Of a DNA stretch of 33,474 nucleotides, positions 10,446-32,505 are shown in pieces; positions within the stretch are counted from its first letter, which is position 1, and each line of letters starts with the position of its first letter. The notes beneath the pieces are model-generated. The model did no database searches. It was not told the origin of the DNA and saw nothing but the letters and a program-made list of their open reading frames with translations. The position numbers were made by a program, and so were the translations under genes. The DNA is from Calditrichota bacterium (lineage in GTDB: Bacteria > Zhuqueibacterota > Zhuqueibacteria > Thermofontimicrobiales > Thermofontimicrobiaceae): NCBI GenBank assembly GCA_013152715.1, contig JAADFU010000048.1:1-33474 (forward strand), written 5' to 3'.

Positions 10446-10480
10446 GTGTACCACACCTTTCAGGTGTAGCACACTTTTTT
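10446..10480 (-). terminator. Palindromic repeat copy B: terminator of the glycosidase-like lipoprotein gene
   Basis: In the leftward RNA, GTGTGCTACACC / GGTGTGGTACAC forms a 12-bp stem with two G-U pairs and loop TGAAA, followed by a run of T. The gene's TGA stop (10482-10480) immediately precedes the stem. A/T runs on both sides could allow bidirectional termination for the convergent genes. Confidence 0.7.
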
Positions 10481-12510
10481 CACCGAAACTTGGGAATTTT
10501 CCTCAAATTAAGAAAATACCGCTCTCCGCAATTGACCTCGTCCAATTCAAAAATTCCATCGGCCAATTTCCTGAAGGGCACGATGGTGTTTTTTTCGTTG
10601 CGAACTTTTCTAATCTCGAAATTATCCATTAATAGCACCAGCCGTCCGTTGTGCGCAGACAAGAATTCGGCTCGATTGTTGTGATAAATGATGATTCCTT
10701 TGCCTTTTTCCGCGGTTTCAGCGAGCAAATCGCCGTCAAAGGAGCGGAGTTTCCACTTGCCAAAATCGGAGAATGTGACGATGCCATCCGGTTTGTTCGC
10801 GGCAAATTGAACCGCTTGTCTGATAAAATTTTTGTTCTCGTCGGCAATTTTCCCGTCCGCAAAAGACTGGCTGTACTGAATCGCCGGCATTCCGAAAATA
10901 GCTGCCGTGGCAAAATAGTACGGAGCAATTTTATTGTACATCGTCACCGCGCCGGCGTCGATCAATTTCCCGGGCAGGGCATTGATGATAATTCGGGCTC
11001 TTTTTTCGCGGCGCAATTTATTGTCCCAGCCATCTTGCAACTGCACCATGTCCTGAATGTGGTAAAAATGCGGGTCGATTGCCGAACTGATAATCAGCGC
11101 GTCTGGTTTGTGAAGTTTTGCCCGGCGGTAAAATTCCCCTAAATAACGGTAAGCTTCTTTAATTCCCATTCCTAAAGTGGGATTTTCAAAATCTGCTGTA
11201 ACAGGATTGGGCGTCAGAAACAGGTTCTCGATTTGGATTCCGTCCGCATTGAGTTGCCCAGGCCTATTGCCGAGCATCATTTTACAGCAGCTATCGACGT
11301 AGGCAGAAAACAGATGATGCGTCGCGTCGCAGAATTCGCCGTCGTGTAAACCCCAGCGCACCGCTTTGGTGTCCGGCTCGATTTGCCAGGCTTTCCAGGA
11401 AAGAATGACGCGAATGCCGCGAACGTGACACCAATCAATGAAATTTCGTAAATTCTTAAAATTTGGTCCTGGCGTAGGATCTCCGTAGAGGCGATTCCAT
11501 TTTCCGTCAAGGATAAAAATAAAATTAGTGTCGATCCAAGTCGAACGAATGGAATCGACAAATGTTTTGACCCAATCCAGTGTGTAGCGTTGGTCATCGG
11601 CCGTAAATTGGTTGAGCAGACGGTCGCCGCGCGGAGAAACGAGCGGCTGTTTCCACCAGTCTGCCATTTTTTCACTGCGTTTTTGTTGAGATTTGTTTCC
11701 CTGAAGAATGAAGCGGCTGAAATCGCGGACGCCATCCCACTCGGAACGATTGCAGCTAATGAGCAATTCCGGGAGCTGGTAGAAATTATTTTTCGCCGCG
11801 GAAATTTTTTCCCAGGGAATGTCCAGCGAGAGGGATTTGTTTTTGAAAGCAAAAATTGTCGCGTCAGGTAATTCAGTAAGTCCGACGCTGAACCAACCAG
11901 CCGGGCTGTGAAAAGACAAATTGAGCGGCGCTGGGGCAAATTTCCATTGCTGATCCCGGTCGGTGCGGATGTCGATTTGCGGATTTCTGGTGTAATAATC
12001 GTCCGGTTCCGGAGAGAAAAATTCACTCCAGCCGCGGGAATCCATTGCCTCGTTTTCGCGACGGAAAAAATAGACGCCAACCCCGCTGTCCGGCGGATGA
12101 ACGGAAAATTTCACGGAAAAGCAATTTTCAAAAAAAGCGAATTCCATTTTTAAAATCAAAGAATCTTCTGAAAACTGCTGGCAACTGAGAAAATTATTTT
12201 TAATTTGCCATTTGAAAGAAGACTCTGCTCGCGAGTCAGATTTCGGCGCCGGCAACTGCACCGCGAGCGGAAAAGAGGTGTATTTTTTTTGGACGGAATT
12301 GAAAAACTCAGCGCGCGCATTGTGCTTGTTAATTTTCAAAAAATAGACCGGAGTCGTTATTCTAATTTCACTCGAATCCTGGACAATGGTGGTAGCGGGT
12401 TTTATTTCCTCTGAAGGCGGACGGTTGGAGGCACAGGAAAAATAAATCACCGCTGCAAAAATGACCGGCAAAATTGGTCCAAAGAATTTATTTGACCACA
12501 TAGCGCGCAT
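10480..12510 (-). CDS. Glycoside hydrolase-like (TIM-barrel) lipoprotein
   Basis: A lipoprotein of 676 residues with start ATG at 12510 (AAGG 8 nt upstream). The longer in-frame reading to 12792 is rejected because the promoter at 12683-12711 lies within it. Residues 1-26 form a lipoprotein signal (AAVIYFSCAS, Cys26). Residues about 30-270 look like a beta-sandwich. A barrel region follows, reminiscent of the GH31/GH36 alpha-galactosidase/alpha-glucosidase clan (TNFIFILDGKWNRLYGD, FIDWCHVRGIRVILSWKAW, LNADGIQIENL), then a beta-rich tail. At the expected nucleophile position the sequence reads ADGIQIEN rather than the usual K/W-x-D, so activity and family are uncertain. It is probably an outer-membrane or periplasmic glycan-active protein. 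Confidence 0.72.
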   Translation of the reverse strand: MRAMWSNKFFGPILPVIFAAVIYFSCASNRPPSEEIKPATTIVQDSSEIRITTPVYFLKINKHNARAEFFNSVQKKYTSFPLAVQLPAPKSDSRAESSFKWQIKNNFLSCQQFSEDSLILKMEFAFFENCFSVKFSVHPPDSGVGVYFFRRENEAMDSRGWSEFFSPEPDDYYTRNPQIDIRTDRDQQWKFAPAPLNLSFHSPAGWFSVGLTELPDATIFAFKNKSLSLDIPWEKISAAKNNFYQLPELLISCNRSEWDGVRDFSRFILQGNKSQQKRSEKMADWWKQPLVSPRGDRLLNQFTADDQRYTLDWVKTFVDSIRSTWIDTNFIFILDGKWNRLYGDPTPGPNFKNLRNFIDWCHVRGIRVILSWKAWQIEPDTKAVRWGLHDGEFCDATHHLFSAYVDSCCKMMLGNRPGQLNADGIQIENLFLTPNPVTADFENPTLGMGIKEAYRYLGEFYRRAKLHKPDALIISSAIDPHFYHIQDMVQLQDGWDNKLRREKRARIIINALPGKLIDAGAVTMYNKIAPYYFATAAIFGMPAIQYSQSFADGKIADENKNFIRQAVQFAANKPDGIVTFSDFGKWKLRSFDGDLLAETAEKGKGIIIYHNNRAEFLSAHNGRLVLLMDNFEIRKVRNEKNTIVPFRKLADGIFELDEVNCGERYFLNLRKIPKFR

Positions 12511-12682
12511 GGGGTAAACCTTAAAAATTTTGACGTTCCAATCTAATCGAATAAAATAACAGCAATTTATTACAAAAATTATTCCATTGTGTGATAATTG
12601 AGGATATTTGTTTTCAAGTTTAATAGAATCAATCAATTGAGCCTTGCAGCCCAAAGAGAAATGTTTTTTCCGTTGGTCGGAA

Positions 12683-12711
12683 ATGATACGAAATTTGCAC
12701 ACTAAAGTCAA
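12683..12711 (-). promoter_or_regulatory. Sigma70-type promoter of the glycosidase-like lipoprotein gene
   Basis: Leftward TTGACT (12711-12706), a 17-nt spacer and TATCAT (12688-12683). Initiation near 12676 gives a leader of about 165 nt to the ATG at 12510. Apart from this promoter, 12511-12894 shows no gene that I can support. Confidence 0.65.
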
Positions 12712-12894
12712 GAGTTGGTTGAAGATTGAAAGAAATTTAGAAAAATGACAAAAGGAAATGTCGAGAAAAGGCTGGAATTTTTTCAGTCTCAACTAATGAA
12801 AAATCAATGGGATGCATTTTCGTCCTTAATTTTCAGAAGAAAAGAAAAATGACATTTTTGAAATAGCAACATCAAAAATGAATTTAAGGAGATT

Positions 12895-13724: not shown

Positions 13725-14663
13725 TTATGATAACAAACCGTTAATGATCAATTCGACGGCTTCTTCTTCGTCCATGCCGCGGGACATCAGCGTTTCTAAT
13801 TGTTTATTATCCACGCTCCCGATGGCGGCCTCATGAGTCACGTGGGCGCGAGGATCTTCTACGTCCACGATGGGAATGGCTTTGGCGACAGCCTCGTCTT
13901 TCACAATTTCGTGGCAATCGACATGGCCGCGCGTGAACGGCGCTGTAGCGCGCAAGGTATTGTAAACTTCGGCGCGCGCTTTTCCGCGAGCGGCAATTTT
14001 CGACGTGAGCACGCCGCGCGCCCGCTCGCCAACGAGAAATCCGGATTCTCTGATTTCAATTATGTCGTCTTCAGTGCCGCTAATACGCGAAGTCATTTCC
14101 ATCACGCTGTCTTCTTTGCCGGTAATCTCATAATCGATGTAAATTTCGCCCACGCGTCCTTTGAGCAACTCAAACTCCGTGTTGAATTTCGCGCCTTTTT
14201 CCAGCGTCACCTTTGCTTTGGGAACGACTTTTATGCCCCCTTTGCTGCCGTGGATGTGGCGCTCAAAATAAGTATAGTCAGCATTTTCGCCAATATTGAT
14301 TTTCGCGTCCATGATGTGCTGAATAGCGACAGCATTGGGAAATGTGCAATGAGAGAGCAGCGAAATTTTAGAATTTTTGCCAATTTTCACATCCATCTTG
14401 ATGCGCTGAATACCGGTTTCAGGAATGATCCCGAAACACAAATGCACCGGATTTTTCACGACAACGTCGTCTGCGAGCCGCATGGTTAATTCCACGCCGT
14501 CTTCCAATTCTTTCGCGTCCATTTCCAAACCCGGAACCAGGTGCGTGCCCAATACTTTATTTTGATGAACCACCAAATGGGCAACTTCCGGGTCGCTCAA
14601 AATGCCCGAATCTGACTCGGTGGTCTCGTAAACTTCTTTCATTTGCTGCATCTTATCGTTCAT
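13725..14663 (-). CDS. SufB/SufD-family Fe-S assembly scaffold protein (short, archaeal-like form)
   Basis: A 312-residue SufBD-core protein, clearly shorter than bacterial SufB (about 470-480) or SufD (about 420). The beta-helix core spans residues about 70-280, with the conserved end GHVDCHEIVKD and HVTHEAAIGSVDNKQLETLMSRGMDEEEA. The C-terminal EEEAVELIINGLL helix is the usual SufC-docking end. Its start overlaps the SufC stop by one base (TAATG), so translation is coupled. With SufC it should form a scaffold complex on which iron-sulfur clusters are built in the cytoplasm. The length and two-gene arrangement resemble the minimal SufCB (SMS-type) systems of methanogens and other anaerobes. 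I cannot decide from sequence alone whether to call it B or D. Confidence 0.9.
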   Translation of the reverse strand: MNDKMQQMKEVYETTESDSGILSDPEVAHLVVHQNKVLGTHLVPGLEMDAKELEDGVELTMRLADDVVVKNPVHLCFGIIPETGIQRIKMDVKIGKNSKISLLSHCTFPNAVAIQHIMDAKINIGENADYTYFERHIHGSKGGIKVVPKAKVTLEKGAKFNTEFELLKGRVGEIYIDYEITGKEDSVMEMTSRISGTEDDIIEIRESGFLVGERARGVLTSKIAARGKARAEVYNTLRATAPFTRGHVDCHEIVKDEAVAKAIPIVDVEDPRAHVTHEAAIGSVDNKQLETLMSRGMDEEEAVELIINGLLS

Positions 14664-15409
14664 TATTTTGCCTCCGCTGGAAATTCTTCAGGTGCATTTT
14701 TGTGATCGCAGATCAGACATTTGTCTTCAAAATAGTGCCGGATGCGGCTCACCGGACCTTTGTCAAAAATTTTGCCAGCGCAAAGCAGAAACGCGTGATC
14801 CGCCTGTTTCAACACTTCCAGGCTGTGAGTGATCAAAAGCACTGTCGAGCCCATGGCTTTGAGATAGGTGAGGGCTGCGAAAATATTTTTCAGCGCGCTG
14901 ATGTCAATGCCGGAATCGGGCTCGTCGAGCAAAACTAATTTGGGACGCATCGCCAGAATCGACGCCATTTCGATTTTCTTCCTCTCGCCACCGCTGAGCG
15001 TTTTGTCCACAGCCCGGTCGGCGTAAATTGGCGGCTCCAGTCCCATTTTATTCAACACTTCTTCGACAATGCCGTTTTTCCCTCCGTTAAAATGTGCGGC
15101 AGCTTTAATAAAATCGCGCACTTTCAGTCCTTCGTAGCGCGCCGGTTCCTGCCAGCCGAGCGTAATGCCCAATCGCGCTCTCTGATCGACGGAAAGATTT
15201 TTTATCGAATTTCCTGCAAATAAAATATCGCCTTCAAAATCGCGGTAGCCGGAGAGACCCATAATTGTGTAAGCAAAAGTCGATTTTCCGGCGCCGTTTG
15301 GTCCCACAACAGCGTGAATATGTCCTTCCCAAAAATCTACGCTTAAATCGTCAAGAATTTTATGACCATCAAGTGAAAGACTCAAGTTTTTAACTGTTAA
15401 AATTCCCAC
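14663..15409 (-). CDS. sufC: SufC, Fe-S cluster assembly ATPase
   Basis: An ABC-type ATPase of 248 residues with Walker A GPNGAGKST, the SufC-typical GWQEPARYEGLKVRDF Q-loop region, signature LSGGERKKIEMASI, Walker B KLVLLDEPDSGIDI and the H-loop (LLITHS). It powers SufB/SufD scaffold remodelling. I chose the GTG at 15409, preceded by AGGTGG at 5 nt, over an in-frame GTG at 15418, which would lie inside that ribosome site. The last ~25 residues (CLICDHKNAPEEFPAEAK) add a small tail with a C-x2-C pair. It is the first gene of a translationally coupled pair with the SufBD protein; no SufS, SufU or SufE follows. Confidence 0.93.
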   Translation of the reverse strand: MGILTVKNLSLSLDGHKILDDLSVDFWEGHIHAVVGPNGAGKSTFAYTIMGLSGYRDFEGDILFAGNSIKNLSVDQRARLGITLGWQEPARYEGLKVRDFIKAAAHFNGGKNGIVEEVLNKMGLEPPIYADRAVDKTLSGGERKKIEMASILAMRPKLVLLDEPDSGIDISALKNIFAALTYLKAMGSTVLLITHSLEVLKQADHAFLLCAGKIFDKGPVSRIRHYFEDKCLICDHKNAPEEFPAEAK

Positions 15410-15423
15410 TAATTCCACCTCAT

Positions 15424-15606: not shown

Positions 15607-18600
15607 TTATCTGAAAATCGCCATCTTCCTCGATGATGCAAAGCGGCCGGCTTTGATGACGTAAACGTAAATCCCCGAACTCACCGCATCGCCGGTAGCG
15701 TTACAGCCGTTCCATTTCACGCTTTTTCTGCCGGGAGATTGATGCTCGTGAACCAACTCGGCCACTTTTTCGCCCGTTACGTTGTAAACAGTCAGCGTCA
15801 CAAATGTGGCTTCGGGTAAATCGTACTGGATCGTCGTCGTGGGATTGAATGGGTTGGGGTAATTCTGGTACAATTCAAATCGCTGCGCCTGCGCAAAATT
15901 GCCATTCTGAATGAGTGAGACTGTCCCTCTTCCCGCCGGGAAATTGTTGATGCGATAGCTCAAAATTTCAATCGCTGATTCCGGCAGCAGAGAAGATGAT
16001 TTTTCCCGAAAGCGGACTTTCAGAAACGTCCCCGATTTTTCAATGGCCTGCGTCCCAAAAGCGCCGATTCTGACTAATCCCGGCTGCGAGGAATTAACCA
16101 GAGTTTGAAACGGAATTTCCGCGGAGACAAAAACAGAATCGAATTCGAGTTCTTCCGCATCAAAGCGCAGGTTCAAGTCGCACGAGTAAATTTGGTAATT
16201 TTCATCATTTTTGAAATCAAGACTAATTTTTCCGCCGTCGTCGACGTCGGCGGTGAAAGTTTTCCGCAAAGCAAAAGGCGTGCTCAATTCCCCAGCCGGT
16301 GACCAACTTGCATCCACGTCGCCGATGACGATTGCCTGAAAATCCGCATCCGTGACATCGTCGGACAAATTGGGGTAATTTCGCTGTGCCGGGGAAAATG
16401 TCCATTGAGTGATGTGTGACTCCGGCGGCTGCGACAAGCCCACAGCTTCTCTGGCGATAAGCGCCGCGTCGTACATTTGAATCTCGCCATTCAGATCGAC
16501 ATCTGCCGCCAGCCTCTGCGCGGGAGTCGCCTCAGGAAAAAGTTCCAGCGCCAGACGTGCCGCCAGCGAGGCGTCGTAGCTCAAAATTGTCGTTTCTGCC
16601 ACATCGCCCGTTTTTGCCGGCGTCAACACGAGCGCGCTGTTAGTTTCCAAATCATCAAATTGAAACGCGCCATCTGCAGCGGAAATTTGGTCGCCGTTGA
16701 TATCGCCGGTCAAAACCAACCTCGCGCCGCCGACAGGTCTGGACGAATCCTGATATTTCACGATGCCCGACAAAATGAGCAAGGGAATATCGTTCGCCAG
16801 ACCCTTGATGCAGAAATTTGCCGATTGATCGTAATCGTACAAATCGAGCCATTGCGAGTTGGCGAAATAGTAACTTTCGCCGGGATTTGCCGTGGATTGA
16901 ACAATCGTTCCCTGCGCCGTTGCGCCAAGCAAAACCGGCACTTCGGAAGTTTTGTCGTAAGGCTGACCACCGTCAGAGAGGTAGAGATAAATGTAAAAAT
17001 CATCGCCGTTGTGAAGTCTGGCCGGCTCAGTCAAATCAATGGTATGAAATCCCTTTTCCGCCAGAGTCCCGGTTTGAGTTGTCAATTCGCTCGCTGGCTG
17101 ACCGCCGATGAAATCGTCAAAAATTTTTACAACGTAGCTGACGTTGTCGGCGGCAGTGAAAAAATTCACCGCCGTCAATTTCTGCGTTCCCACGGCAGTA
17201 AACGCATTCATCGCCACGCTGCAACTGGTCAGCGTGGCGCGCCAGCCGTGGTAGTCGTGGAAATAGACGTGATCCCACTGCAGCGGCGCCACATCGCGGA
17301 AGGAGACCGCGCCCATTTCCGGATGTTTGCCGCAATGTTTATCGTAGTAAGAAATCCAGAAATAACCGTCCAGTCCCCAGGAATCGCCCCAACTATTTTT
17401 GCACAGCCAGGCGCCGGGTTGCGGTGCGTCGGTCACTTTGAAGTCGTTCCAGCCCACAATGGCGATAGAGTGATTAGGCTCGTGGTTGTCCGATTCCGGC
17501 TGATAATGCTCAAAATCGGAATTGAGAAAACTGCTGCTGTAATACATGCAGCTTCCCACGGCGCCATAATTTTTCACGTCCTGTTTGATTTTTTCGATAT
17601 TGCGGAGATCGCTGTCCGTGTTCTCCCAGATGATTTCCCACGGATAAAAGTAGTGAAAACTTTGATTCGAATAATCCGGCGGCGAAGAATACGACTGCCC
17701 GTCCTGTTCGCGCACCGCGCCGTCGCCGCGGCTCAAATAAGCGGCTGCCACGCGATAATCGCCGCCCTGGTGCACTGTCAAACCGTCTCCTGTCGACGGA
17801 TCCAGGTCCCCGTTGTAGTGCTCGTTGAATCCGTTCCACCAATCCAGATGATACTCGGCAAGATTGGGTTCTCCGGACTCGCCGGCGGAAGTCCAGTTTC
17901 CGGTTTTCAGCAAATTACTTTCCATGGCCGCCATCACGCCGTGCGTCCAGCAGGTGCCGCCGCGCTGATTGCGCACGCCAGAGACCAGACCGAGCTCGCG
18001 CAGGTCAAACACCGCCGGAATTTCGCCGTACAAATCGATGCCGTCAAAAAGTCTGTCCAGCGCGCGCACGGAAACGTAGGGGATGTAGCCGTGCGGACGA
18101 ACAACATCCACGTATTTTTCAATTTTTCTGTTGCGCGTCAAATATTCGATGGAAAGAATCAGTTCTCCATGGGCACGATAGCGGCTGTCCAGCAAATTGA
18201 GGCGATAGTTATCCGGATCGTAAGGATTGTTTTCATCGTTGTCGCCCTGAAAAAAGAGCCCCTCGCAGCCAATGCCGTCGATGGCTTGAAAATATGCCTC
18301 TTGTTCCGCAACTGAAACATCGGACTCGTCAGTTACTGCCTCTGCATTTTGCGCGAAGATGTAAAACGGCGGTTCGGCGTGAGCGTGCGAGTAATTGTCG
18401 ATGGCTTCAATGAATTGAATCATGCGCGACGCTGCGTTCGGAATTTCGTTGGCCATGAAACCCCAGTAGTAGTAAGCGTCCACAATGTCCATGTAAATGC
18501 CGTCGAAGCCCTGGGAGAAAATTGTGTCCAGATACTGAAAGACAATCGCCTGCCAAGCCGGATCCCAAAAGCGGACCTTGTAGTTGTCTATCCAGTCGGG

Positions 18601-18996
18601 ATTTGCCGGACCCAGCCAGTCCGGAGCGCCCGGGTCGGGATTGCCGTCGTGATTGGCGTCCCAGCTATTCTGCCAGTACCAGCGGTAAGTTTCCGCCTCG
18701 CCGATGGAAAGGTAGGCGAGTACGATTTTGCCGCTATTTTTTAGCTGTGCGATTTGCTCTGCGGAAAAAACTGCTTCGGGCCCGCCGGTCGCTGAGTAGT
18801 CGATAACAATCAAATCAATGGAGTTATTTTGACTGATTTCCTGAATGTCGATATTTTGCAGTTGAATGGCCCAGGTGCGGACAGTGGAAAGATCAGCGGC
18901 AAACCCTTTGGCAAAAATCAAGCCGCAGGAAAAAATGATGAAAAATAATATTTCCCGCGTTCTCTCAACTATTATTTCACGAAATGAATCATTCAA
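15607..18996 (-). CDS. T9SS-secreted mosaic protein: TM1410/GH114-like barrel + papain-like protease + dockerin/cohesin-like modules
   Basis: About 1129 residues from the proposed TTG at 18996; the reading frame stays open to 19158, but a promoter at 19049-19078 favours the shorter form. Order: signal peptide (1-34, FAKGFAA/D); TM1410/MJ1477 (GH114-like) barrel about 35-316 ([39 protein letters not shown]); papain-like C1A protease about 326-566 with Gln344, Cys349 ([11 protein letters not shown]), His509 ([11 protein letters not shown]) and Asn534 ([10 protein letters not shown]); lectin-like beta domain about 590-735; dockerin-like repeat about 832-853 ([20 protein letters not shown]); cohesin-like domain about 906-1026; T9SS C-terminal sorting domain about 1042-1129 ([20 protein letters not shown]). 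It is exported and probably surface-anchored. The papain loop is one residue shorter than usual and lacks the extra cysteine. The joint substrate is unknown; glycoprotein or exopolysaccharide-protein matrix is a guess. Confidence 0.85.
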
Positions 18997-19048
18997 TTTG
19001 TGAGCTCGGATTTGGTTTTGCAATTTACTATTGAAAAATAATAAAATC

Positions 19049-19078
19049 AGCATAGAAAAGCAAATCAAAATTTTGCAA
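19049..19078 (-). promoter_or_regulatory. Candidate promoter of the T9SS mosaic protein gene
   Basis: Leftward TTGCAA (19078-19073), an 18-nt spacer and TATGCT (19054-19049). Initiation near 19042 would exclude all upstream in-frame starts and leave the TTG at 18996 as the best candidate. Confidence 0.4.
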
Positions 19079-19305
19079 CTTTTTAAGGCACAAATTATCT
19101 TGACTAACATAGCTAACTTGAAGAATAATGAATGAGTTAAATTTAAAATAGTTGCCATTTTTTGAAACTACAAGTTTTAGAAGAATTGCAAAAGTGGTGC
19201 CAATTTTTGAAGAAAAATTTTGCCAATAAAAAATGAAATAGCGAAAGCTTTATTTTCCGAAAGATTTTGAATTGTTTTGAAAAAAAATTAAATATCGGTG
19301 TGGTG

Positions 19306-28651: not shown

Positions 28652-30619
28652 ATGGAAAAATATTTTCTTGTTTTCGGCATCTTATTCTTTCTGTTTTCCT
28701 GCTCCAAAAATGTGCGTCGGGATTATCCCATCCGACCGGTAGCTTTCACTGACGTCAAACTAACTGACAACTTTTGGGCGCCGCGGCTGGAGACCAATCG
28801 CACGGTAACTGTTCCCTATGATTTTCGCAAATGCGAAGAGACCGGGCGCATAGATAATTTTGCCAAAGCCGGCGGTTTGACGAAAGGAGATTTTGTCGGC
28901 ATCCGCTACAATGATTCCGATGTGTTCAAGGTCATCGAAGGGGCGTCATATTCATTGAGTCTGTATCCTGACGTTGAACTGGAAAAATATCTGGATGATT
29001 TGATTGCAAAAATTGCTGCGGCGCAGGAGGATGACGGCTATTTGTACACGGCGAGAACAATTAATCCTGAAAACTTGCCTCCAAGAACAGGAAAAACGCG
29101 CTGGTCATATTTGAACCACAGCCATGAACTGTACAACGTGGGGCACATGTACGAAGCGGCGGTGGCATTTTATCAGGCGACCGGAAAGAAATCGCTTTTG
29201 AACGTGGCGATCAAAAATGCCAACTTGATCGATTCCGTTTTCGGTCCGGGCAAGCGACACGATCCGCCCGGGCATCAGGAGATAGAAATAGGTCTGACGA
29301 AATTATACCGCGTCACCGGCGATGAGCGTTATTTGAAATTGGCAAAATTTTTTCTCGATCAGCGCGGCTACGAGCGAGGCCGGAAATTGTACACTGATTT
29401 ATTTACTGCGGAATACACGCAAGACCACAAACCGGTTGTGGAACAGGACGAGGCTGTCGGGCACGCCGTACGCGCGGGTTACATGTATTCAGCGATGGCG
29501 GATGTGGCAGCGCTGACTGGCGACAGAAGTTATTTAAATGCAATTGACAAAATTTGGGAAAATGTCGTTTCAAAAAAAATGTACATCACCGGCGGAATCG
29601 GCGCCCGATCTGACGGCGAGGCTTTTGGCGACAATTACGAACTGCCCAATCGCACCGCTTATAACGAAACCTGCGCTGCTATCGCCAACATGATGTGGAA
29701 TCACCGTATGTTCCTGCTGCACGGCGACGCTAAATATATCGACGTGCTGGAGCGAACGTTGTACAACGGATTTATCTCTGGGGTCAGTCTCAGCGGGAAG
29801 AAATTTTTTTACCCCAATCCGCTGGAATCATGCGGCGATCATCAGCGCAGTCCCTGGTTTGATTGTTCCTGTTGTCCCACGAATGTCGTTCGATTTTTGC
29901 CGTCATTGCCGGGATATGTTTATGCCGAAGACAATAATGCTATTTACGTGAACCTATTCATTCAAGGAAAAGCAAAAATTGAACATCGGGGACAGGAAAT
30001 TGAGTTAGAGCAAAAAACGAATTATCCCTGGGAAGGTAAAATCGTTCTTCAGATTTTTCCTGAAGAATCAACAGAATTTTCTCTGAAAATTCGCATCCCT
30101 GGTTGGGCGCAAAATAGTCCTGTTCCGAGCGATTTGTATCGTTACTTGGCAAATATCAATAAAAAGCCGCCTTTACTGCTGAATGGCGAAGAAATTATTT
30201 ACCAGATCGACAAAGGATACGCCACGATTAACCGGAAGTGGCAAGCTGCGGATAGTGTTGAATTAATTCTGCCGATGAAAATTCGTAAGGTTGTGGCGCA
30301 CGAAAGGGTGGCCGAAGATCGCGGAAAAATGTCACTTGAGCGGGGGCCAATCGTTTTTTGCGCCGAAGGAGTCGATAATGACGGTCATGTTTTGAACCTC
30401 GTTTTGCCGAAAGAGGTGCATTTAACTTATCATTTCAAGCCTGATTTGCTTCACGGAATTGGCATGTTAAAGGGACAAGCCGTTACATTTTCAAAAAAAG
30501 AAAATGGATCGATTGAAAAGAAAGAACAAACTTTCACTGCAATTCCCTACTATGCCTGGGCGCATCGCGGAAAAGGGGAGATGGCAGTCTGGTTTCCGTG
30601 GGATGAGAAAGGCCATTGA
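28652..30619 (+). CDS. GH127 beta-L-arabinofuranosidase-like lipoprotein (DUF1680)
   Basis: A 655-residue lipoprotein (FSCSK, Cys17), so probably anchored in the periplasm or on the surface. It matches glycoside hydrolase family 127 along its length: an N-terminal FWAPRLETNRTVTVPYDFRKCEETGRIDNF segment and an (alpha/alpha)6 barrel with GGIGARSDGEAFGDNYELPN. The zinc/catalytic set known from HypBA1 is present: E339 and C341 (YNETCAAIANMMWNHRM) and C407-C408 (FDCSCCPTNVVRFLP). A C-terminal beta-sandwich (FSLKIRIPGWAQN) follows. Family enzymes release beta-L-arabinofuranose from plant hydroxyproline glycoproteins or pectin side chains, using a cysteine nucleophile. It is monocistronic with its own promoter. 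Exact linkage is not proven; related families act on other sugars. Confidence 0.93.
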   Translation: MEKYFLVFGILFFLFSCSKNVRRDYPIRPVAFTDVKLTDNFWAPRLETNRTVTVPYDFRKCEETGRIDNFAKAGGLTKGDFVGIRYNDSDVFKVIEGASYSLSLYPDVELEKYLDDLIAKIAAAQEDDGYLYTARTINPENLPPRTGKTRWSYLNHSHELYNVGHMYEAAVAFYQATGKKSLLNVAIKNANLIDSVFGPGKRHDPPGHQEIEIGLTKLYRVTGDERYLKLAKFFLDQRGYERGRKLYTDLFTAEYTQDHKPVVEQDEAVGHAVRAGYMYSAMADVAALTGDRSYLNAIDKIWENVVSKKMYITGGIGARSDGEAFGDNYELPNRTAYNETCAAIANMMWNHRMFLLHGDAKYIDVLERTLYNGFISGVSLSGKKFFYPNPLESCGDHQRSPWFDCSCCPTNVVRFLPSLPGYVYAEDNNAIYVNLFIQGKAKIEHRGQEIELEQKTNYPWEGKIVLQIFPEESTEFSLKIRIPGWAQNSPVPSDLYRYLANINKKPPLLLNGEEIIYQIDKGYATINRKWQAADSVELILPMKIRKVVAHERVAEDRGKMSLERGPIVFCAEGVDNDGHVLNLVLPKEVHLTYHFKPDLLHGIGMLKGQAVTFSKKENGSIEKKEQTFTAIPYYAWAHRGKGEMAVWFPWDEKGH

Positions 30620-31152: not shown

Positions 31153-32505
31153 TCAATCTTTCGGGCGAACTCGCCATAACATGGTGGAAAGAATCAAAGA
31201 CACTACCGATGCGCCGACCCAAAAAATTATCACTTTGTGGAAATCATAATGCCGCGTTTCATTAATCATCGTTGTTCCGTGCTCGATCATTGTGCCGCTG
31301 ATCCATTCCTGAATTGCCGCAGCGACGTAGCTGAAAATTCCGACAAAACCCATGACTGCGCCGGCTGCTTTTTTGGGGGCAATATCCACGGCAAAAAGTC
31401 CGCCCAACGAAGTGATTAGTCCGCTCAGTGAAAAACCATAGATCAGGAATGCCGCAATGAGCAGTTTCGTGCTTGGGTGCGGCGTGAAAAAGATAATCGA
31501 GAGAGCTGCCAGTTCAAAAATGCCAAAAATCAAATTCGCCGGCGGACGTCGGGCATGAAATATTTTGTCGGAAATGAAGCCGAAACTGACGGCGCCGATA
31601 ATGCCGGCAAAGGTATTGACGCCGATAATGCTGCCGGCCTTGAGCAGGCTGAATCCTTTTGCTTCCTGTAAATAGAGCACGCCCCAGCTATTGATGGCGT
31701 AGCGCGTGACGTAAATGAGCGCGCTCGACATGCCGATGAGCCAAACTTGCGGGATTTTGAGAATGGAGATTTGCGCCTGGCGCGTCTTTTTTTCTGTCCC
31801 GTCCGCTCCGGTGACTGGCGTAATCGGGTCATTGCGCCATTTTGCAATAAGCGGCAGGCCTAACGTCGGTGGCCTGTCCTGTAACGCCAGATAAAGACCG
31901 ATGGCAGTGAAAATTCCCACAAAACCAGCAGCCCAAAATCCGGATCGCCAGCCCCAGGCGCTGACAACCGCGGCGATTCCCACAAAAGTTAGACCTTCGC
32001 CGATCCCGTGCGCTGTTGACCAGATGCCGTAATATCTGCCGCGCTCGCTGTTGCTGTACCAGTGCGTTAACGTCACAATTCCCGACGGCGCATTGAATCC
32101 TTGGAACCAGCCATTTACGCCCCAGAGAATAATCCATACCCAGAGCAGGGGAGACCAGCCCATGAAAAGATTGATCAGTCCCGATATCAGTACGCCGGTG
32201 GCAAAGAATCGTTTGATGTTGGCATAATCCGCCAAAATGCCGTTGAAAAATTTCCCGGCAGCGTAACCGTAAAATATCGCCGAGCCGATAATTCCCAACT
32301 GCTCCGCAGAAAAAACGCCGGCGTCGATGAGCGGTTTTTTGACGACGGACATTCCCAGCCGGCAGGTGTAGGCGAAACCAGCGCCGAGGGTAACAGCTAA
32401 AATTGAGGAAATGCGATATTTTCGATAGAGCCGATCAATGAGTTTCTTGTCTTGCAATTCCGGTTGTGGTGCCCCGGTTTTCCAGAAATCGAGAATGTTT
32501 GCCAT
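31153..32505 (-). CDS. MFS transporter, organophosphate:phosphate antiporter (OPA) type
   Basis: A 450-residue, 12-helix major facilitator of the GlpT/UhpT/UhpC (OPA) type. Matching segments: AYTCRLGMSVVKKPLID near the N-terminus, then GWFQGFNAPSGIVTLTHWYS, NSERGRYYGIWSTAHGIGEG and the central GWRSGFW. OPA members exchange glycerol-3-phosphate or hexose phosphates for phosphate, or act as sensors. The exact substrate is not readable. It lies 11 nt downstream of the DUF6599 gene on the same strand, so the two are probably one transcript ending at the inverted repeat 31091-31134. Confidence 0.9.
   Translation of the reverse strand: MANILDFWKTGAPQPELQDKKLIDRLYRKYRISSILAVTLGAGFAYTCRLGMSVVKKPLIDAGVFSAEQLGIIGSAIFYGYAAGKFFNGILADYANIKRFFATGVLISGLINLFMGWSPLLWVWIILWGVNGWFQGFNAPSGIVTLTHWYSNSERGRYYGIWSTAHGIGEGLTFVGIAAVVSAWGWRSGFWAAGFVGIFTAIGLYLALQDRPPTLGLPLIAKWRNDPITPVTGADGTEKKTRQAQISILKIPQVWLIGMSSALIYVTRYAINSWGVLYLQEAKGFSLLKAGSIIGVNTFAGIIGAVSFGFISDKIFHARRPPANLIFGIFELAALSIIFFTPHPSTKLLIAAFLIYGFSLSGLITSLGGLFAVDIAPKKAAGAVMGFVGIFSYVAAAIQEWISGTMIEHGTTMINETRHYDFHKVIIFWVGASVVSLILSTMLWRVRPKD

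Follow-up and report, generated by a model that had tools for sequence, protein, structure and literature searches.

Sequence Analysis of a Predicted Exported Protein That Joins a GH191 Barrel to a Cwp84-type Protease in Candidate Phylum KSB1

Introduction

In 2025, TM1410 (TmGH191) and an environmental enzyme (Env-GH191) were taken out of the glycoside hydrolase family GH114 and placed in GH191, and Asp156 and Glu225 were put forward as the catalytic pair of TmGH191 (PMC12054363). Env-GH191 cleaves Pel, whereas neither activity nor binding was seen with TmGH191 in the assays performed, and endo-galactosaminidase activity in GH191 has been demonstrated for one member only (PMC12054363). Among papain-family proteases, Cwp84 of Clostridioides difficile processes SlpA and matures the cell's own S-layer (PMC4089489). 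Here we describe a gene from the candidate phylum KSB1, encoded in a stretch of 33,474 nucleotides that was analyzed as a whole (the window), in which these two known kinds of enzyme are joined in one chain, an arrangement that appears to be new.

Gene and Overall Organization

The gene occupies positions 15607..18996 on the minus strand, as do all features described below unless otherwise stated, and encodes 1129 residues from a TTG start at 18996. The frame is free of stops throughout, the corresponding register of the plus strand over 15607–18996 has many, and the gene was judged to be real. Upstream of the TTG the frame continues open as far as an ATG at 19158, but a translation start at or near 18996 is favored because the G+C content of 18997–19158 is only 27% as compared with 51–54% in the gene body. 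Starting at the TTG yields an ordinary signal-peptide-like N terminus (residues 1–34, 18895..18996), recognized from sequence and hydropathy, with a hydrophobic stretch at residues 13–29 followed by KGFAA. The parts that follow the signal peptide are, in order, a GH191 barrel, a C1A protease, a Lectin_like domain, a degenerate dockerin-like stretch, a cohesin-fold domain, and a type A sorting tail of the type IX secretion system (T9SS).

An earlier note on this DNA, made from its letters, had described the open frame, the barrel motifs, the residues Cys349, His509, and Asn534, and the motifs DVDLNGEI and NYPNPFNP, all of which were found as described. Its central claim, that barrel and papain-like protease lie in a single protein, is borne out by profile matches far beyond chance (TIGR01370, E 8e-65; PF03537, E 9e-25; Peptidase_C1, E 1e-13). 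Its list of domains holds for the barrel, the papain domain, the cohesin-like domain, and the tail, but it overlooked the Lectin_like domain (PF18560), and the dockerin is weak.

The GH191 Barrel

The barrel comprises residues 36–315 (18052..18891). It scores 218.9 bits against TIGR01370 (MJ1477/TM1410, NCBIfam), for which the curated cut-off is 181.25, and matches the Pfam family PF03537 (GH114) over residues 41–314. A sequence search of the PDB with this region returned TM1410 (E 9e-39) and Env-GH191. The AlphaFold model is confident, with pLDDT mostly between 80 and 95, and has the form of a modified (β/α)8 barrel. When this model was used in Foldseek, the top matches were the GH191 structures 9euz and 9eux (E 4e-21), followed by PelA and Ega3, with GH114 coming after PelA. 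The prediction for this first region thus agrees with the TM1410-type barrel that had been proposed from sequence motifs; the family that was named with it, GH114, is replaced by GH191 in the current CAZy split (PMC12054363).

Counted along the PDB alignment, Asp170 (18487..18489) is the equivalent of the TmGH191 nucleophile Asp156, and Glu245 (18262..18264) is the equivalent of the acid/base Glu225 (PMC12054363). Both residues are invariant across the aligned related sequences, which include two fusion proteins and their free-standing relatives.

Barrels of the GH191 type were also encountered in a circularly permuted form, in which, within one frame, the half located after the YLD motif in TM1410 precedes the N-terminal half. 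They are present in L041 (925–1938), L042, L043, L044, and L047, from the KSB1 genomes G037, G004, G028, G035, and G005, in L077, and in L078 (Treponema sp. RUI111). After in silico rotation, their alignment extends across the entire barrel, with both catalytic residues retained. No description of circularly permuted GH191-type barrels was found in the open-access literature.

The Protease and Lectin-like Unit

The C1A papain-family protease (residues 326–557, 17326..18021) scores 52.3 bits against PF00112, for which the Pfam cut-off is 20.7 (E 1e-13), and PDB matches are to Cwp84 and cathepsins. By alignment, the papain set is complete: the catalytic Cys349 (17950..17952) is preceded five residues earlier by Gln344, the catalytic histidine is His509 (17470..17472), and the papain asparagine is Asn534 in the sequence KNSWG (17395..17397). 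Wherever KSB1 relatives extend to these positions, all four residues are conserved. The triad reported in the earlier note is present. The AlphaFold model of the protease half has a pLDDT of about 25, with one homologue covering that half, and is too poor to place the triad, so that the predicted convergence of these residues in a papain fold rests on the alignment.

Between Gln344 and Cys349 the chain has one residue fewer than papain, as had been pointed out previously with the suggestion that the enzyme may be atypical. The shorter length is confirmed, but it is not a peculiarity of this protein because QxGGTCW occurs in every KSB1 homologue of the same clade that reaches this stretch, whereas a second, separate KSB1 group (L022 and L069) has the usual spacing. 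The idea that the short loop marks an inactive enzyme was rejected, since the loop is clade-wide and Gln, Cys, His, and Asn are otherwise strictly conserved.

Directly after the protease is a Lectin_like domain (PF18560; residues 577–733, 16798..17268) with a score of 101 bits as compared with a cut-off of 27 (E 9e-29); a second search gave the same coordinates. In the PDB search, Cwp84 aligns over residues 329–733, about 400 residues that take in the protease and the lectin-like domain together. Because the Lectin_like domain is present, the protease half is, by sequence, a Cwp84-type C1A-Lectin_like unit. Among the side-chain calcium ligands of the Cwp84 lectin-like domain, the equivalent of Asn487 is kept and that of Glu448 falls at an ambiguous position in the alignment. 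Examination of the frame sequence and the Pfam bounds revealed no propeptide ahead of the protease, the GH191 barrel ending about 10 residues before it, and for this reason we regard the fusion as sharing the Cwp84-type unit and not as an orthologue of Cwp84.

C-terminal Modules and Export

Residues 744–799 (16600..16767) form a weak carboxypeptidase-regulatory-like β stretch, assigned by aligning the fusion to a relative, L058, the only sequence in which PF13620 was matched (E 3e-5, below the cut-off). The degenerate dockerin-like stretch (residues 800–855, 16432..16599) scores 11.9 bits against the type I dockerin family PF00404, for which the cut-off is 22.9 (E 0.26), and has one clear DxDxNGxI loop where two calcium loops are expected; in the low-confidence model, its helices are correctly placed. 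The cohesin-fold domain (residues 924–1002, 15991..16227) scores 27.2 bits against PF00963, above the cut-off of 24.1, and Foldseek returned cohesins at E 2e-5, which is a weak support for the fold since the C-terminal model has a pLDDT of 43. Of the two modules named in the earlier note, the cohesin-like one is accordingly upheld, and the dockerin-like one falls short of its threshold.

Cohesin and dockerin matches number 31 and 13, respectively, in the window's own genome, and about seven open frames contain both, most of them also ending in a T9SS tail (contigs C179, C54, C167, C204, C175, C68, and C121 of G000). Cohesin together with dockerin in T9SS frames could allow a chain-like assembly of surface proteins. 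Despite these numbers, a cellulosome-like system was not adopted for the present protein because its dockerin is below the cut-off.

The type A sorting tail (residues 1046–1127, 15616..15861) scores 28.4 bits against TIGR04183, above the cut-off of 23, in agreement with the tail already recognized from its NPNPFNP motif. The T9SS machinery was checked by its component SprA, which is encoded in the genome (895 bits over the frame), and the genome has about 140 matches to type A tails. With SprA and this number of tails, T9SS export of the fusion is credible.

Distribution and Origin

Eighty-two KSB1 genomes were surveyed, the window's genome being 97.9% complete. A Lectin_like match is present in 18 of them and a TM1410 match in 30, but only two, the window's genome and that of KSB1 bacterium 4572_119 (G061), have both domains in one frame. 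The latter is classified in the same GTDB family but in a different genus, and its domains come in the same order. The two fusions share 63% identity across the 660 residues common to both, and their C-terminal modules are also alike. A genome of the same genus as the window (G058) has the C-terminal half of such a protein (the end of the protease, lectin, cohesin, and tail) at a contig edge, with the front out of view. Separate proteins of the GH191-tail and C1A-Lectin_like-tail types are also found in the phylum. The trees are consistent with a single ancestral fusion, in that the two proteins group as sisters both for the GH191 domain (96/98) and for the protease (98/97). The simplest reading is that two kinds of T9SS cargo typical of the phylum were fused once, in an ancestor within the family.

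In 4572_119, a second C1A-Lectin_like frame directly follows the fusion gene (L058, 3496–4971). It lacks its start, including the stretch with the catalytic cysteine, and is a decayed or mis-assembled copy.

A scan of viral contigs yielded no relative with which to deepen the alignment, and no record in the plasmid collection had both domains. Contigs beyond KSB1 were scanned with the barrel motifs only, a search that would miss fusions with divergent barrels; the survey outside the phylum being limited, the claim of rarity holds for KSB1.

Genomic Context

The next gene downstream encodes a SufC-like ABC ATPase (14663..15418) and the second a SufB/D-like protein (13725..14663), neither of which is part of the proposed mechanism. 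An ABC ATPase gene is found after the fusion in the window and in 4572_119 and after the C-terminal half in G058, with 4572_119 and G058 judged by eye from the protein starts. Taken together, the neighbors in the window (SufC-like, SufBD-like, aminotransferase, DNA glycosylase, and MurJ) give no hint of what the fusion does. Elsewhere in the window are a 770-residue frame with zero Pfam matches (10480–12792, minus strand) and, on the plus strand, a gene of the GH127 β-L-arabinofuranosidase type (28652–30619) with an MFS transporter gene nearby (31153–32505).

Because PelG was not found in the window's genome, the cell probably does not synthesize Pel, and a Pel matrix of its own making is disfavored as the substrate. 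PelG is nevertheless a single marker in a genome that is 97.9% complete, and its absence is compatible with galactosamine polymers of other kinds made by the cell itself.

Discussion

The order and families of the domains, the conserved catalytic residues, the T9SS context, the occurrence in a second genus, and the trees are the basis on which we read the protein as having two activities. Exported through Sec and the T9SS, it would be attached to the cell surface or released. The GH191 barrel is predicted to use a retaining Asp/Glu mechanism to cut a cationic, partly deacetylated α-1,4-galactosamine polysaccharide (Pel- or GAG-like); the Cwp84-type unit would cut matrix or surface-layer protein, and a single chain could attack both components of a foreign biofilm matrix or of cell debris, with the cohesin- and dockerin-like modules as spacers or docking parts. 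That the protein is such a bifunctional hydrolase, directed at the sugar and protein of a non-self matrix or necromass, is a reading in which our confidence is about even. For it are the catalytic residues kept in both the GH191 and the papain sets, the confident barrel model with GH191 structures as its top matches, the sorting tail in a genome that has SprA and about 140 such tails, the failure to find PelG, the cleavage of Pel by one GH191 member, the existence of a GH191-GH16 fusion elsewhere (L071), and the retention of the fusion in two genera; the patchy occurrence of C1A-Lectin_like proteins is also what one would expect of a nutritional rather than a housekeeping role. Against it are the inactivity of TmGH191 in the tests made, the poor model of the protease half, the role of Cwp84 in maturing its own S-layer, and the restriction of the fusion to two genomes. 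The earlier note had suggested attack on a mixed sugar-protein matrix; the two catalytic sets are intact in the sequence, and the activity of both enzymes, their substrates, the foreign target, and the cooperation of the two activities are what we infer.

The alignment of the protease-lectin unit with Cwp84 over some 400 residues raises the alternative of a surface-maturation protease. Its targets would be the S-layer or other T9SS surface proteins of the same cell, and the GH191 barrel would direct it to the glycans of those targets or strip them off. We consider this possible but unlikely: the Lectin_like domain is found in only 18 of the 82 KSB1 genomes and is missing from some members of the family to which the window belongs, a distribution unlike that of an essential maturation step, and the T9SS tail marks exported cargo. 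A different role for the barrel, as a non-cutting part that binds polysaccharide or gates the protease, would accommodate the lack of detectable activity in TmGH191, and since there is no separate propeptide between the two domains, the barrel does occupy the place of the Cwp84 propeptide. This seems distinctly improbable, however, because both catalytic residues are kept in the two fusions and in the free-standing relatives, and the clade's stand-alone KSB1 proteases have neither a barrel nor a long propeptide, so that no gate seems to be needed. A more elaborate version, to which we assign only a slim chance, has the barrel replacing the propeptide as a gate that holds the protease groove closed until polysaccharide is bound or cut, so that proteolysis would occur only inside the right matrix.

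The shortened loop before Cys349 might be taken to mean that one or both enzymes are inactive relics retained as binding modules, which is very unlikely given that the loop is found throughout the KSB1 clade, alongside strict conservation of the papain residues, and that the GH191 residues are intact. Since GH191-tail and C1A-Lectin_like-tail proteins also occur separately in the phylum, the fusion could in principle be the product of a mis-assembly of two adjacent genes; such an artefact is scarcely credible when the same joint and order are present in an independent MAG of another genus at 63% identity and the two proteins are sisters in both trees. The two-activity reading, if correct on both sides, would make this protein, which comes from an uncultured phylum, a natural degrader of a matrix of amino-sugar polysaccharide and protein, and it could then be considered for studies of biofilm dispersal.

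Comparison with Known Systems

With TmGH191 (2aam, 9eux, and 9euz) and Env-GH191 (9ep5), the fusion shares the barrel fold, both catalytic residues, and about 30% identity. The crystallized proteins are single catalytic domains with no protease, unlike the fusion; Env-GH191 is active on Pel, and TmGH191 was inactive in the tests made. GH191 is also joined to another module in a protein from an Endomicrobia MAG (L071, 78–2222), where it shares one chain with GH16 and a T9SS-like tail, and in two longer proteins of about 1050–1085 residues from Actinomycetota MAGs (L073 and L074), where it is C-terminal to a front half with no Pfam match; in contrast to the fusion, none of these has a protease partner. 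The closest free-standing barrels in the phylum, by score, are stand-alone GH191 proteins with a T9SS-like tail (for example L034), which are also devoid of a protease. The stand-alone C1A-Lectin_like proteins of KSB1 (for example L060 from the same genome, L062, L065, and L066) belong to the same QxGGTCW protease clade, and several have a T9SS tail of their own, but they lack the GH191 barrel. Cwp84 (4ci7 and 4d59) resembles the fusion in that its Lectin_like domain comes immediately after the C1A protease. The propeptide of Cwp84 is wrapped around the lectin-like domain, and its C terminus carries cell-wall-binding repeats, whereas the fusion has a GH191 barrel in front and a T9SS tail behind, and the papain asparagine position is Asn in the fusion and Ser in Cwp84, by alignment. 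The fusion thereby adds a protease to the partners of GH191, a recently defined family with poorly known substrates, and brings lectin-like proteases of the Cwp84 type into the range of T9SS cargo. No description of a barrel combined with a papain domain was found in the open-access literature searched, in line with the earlier note, which knew of none; each module is known, and the joining of GH191 to a Cwp84-type protease seems to be rare and not to have been described before.
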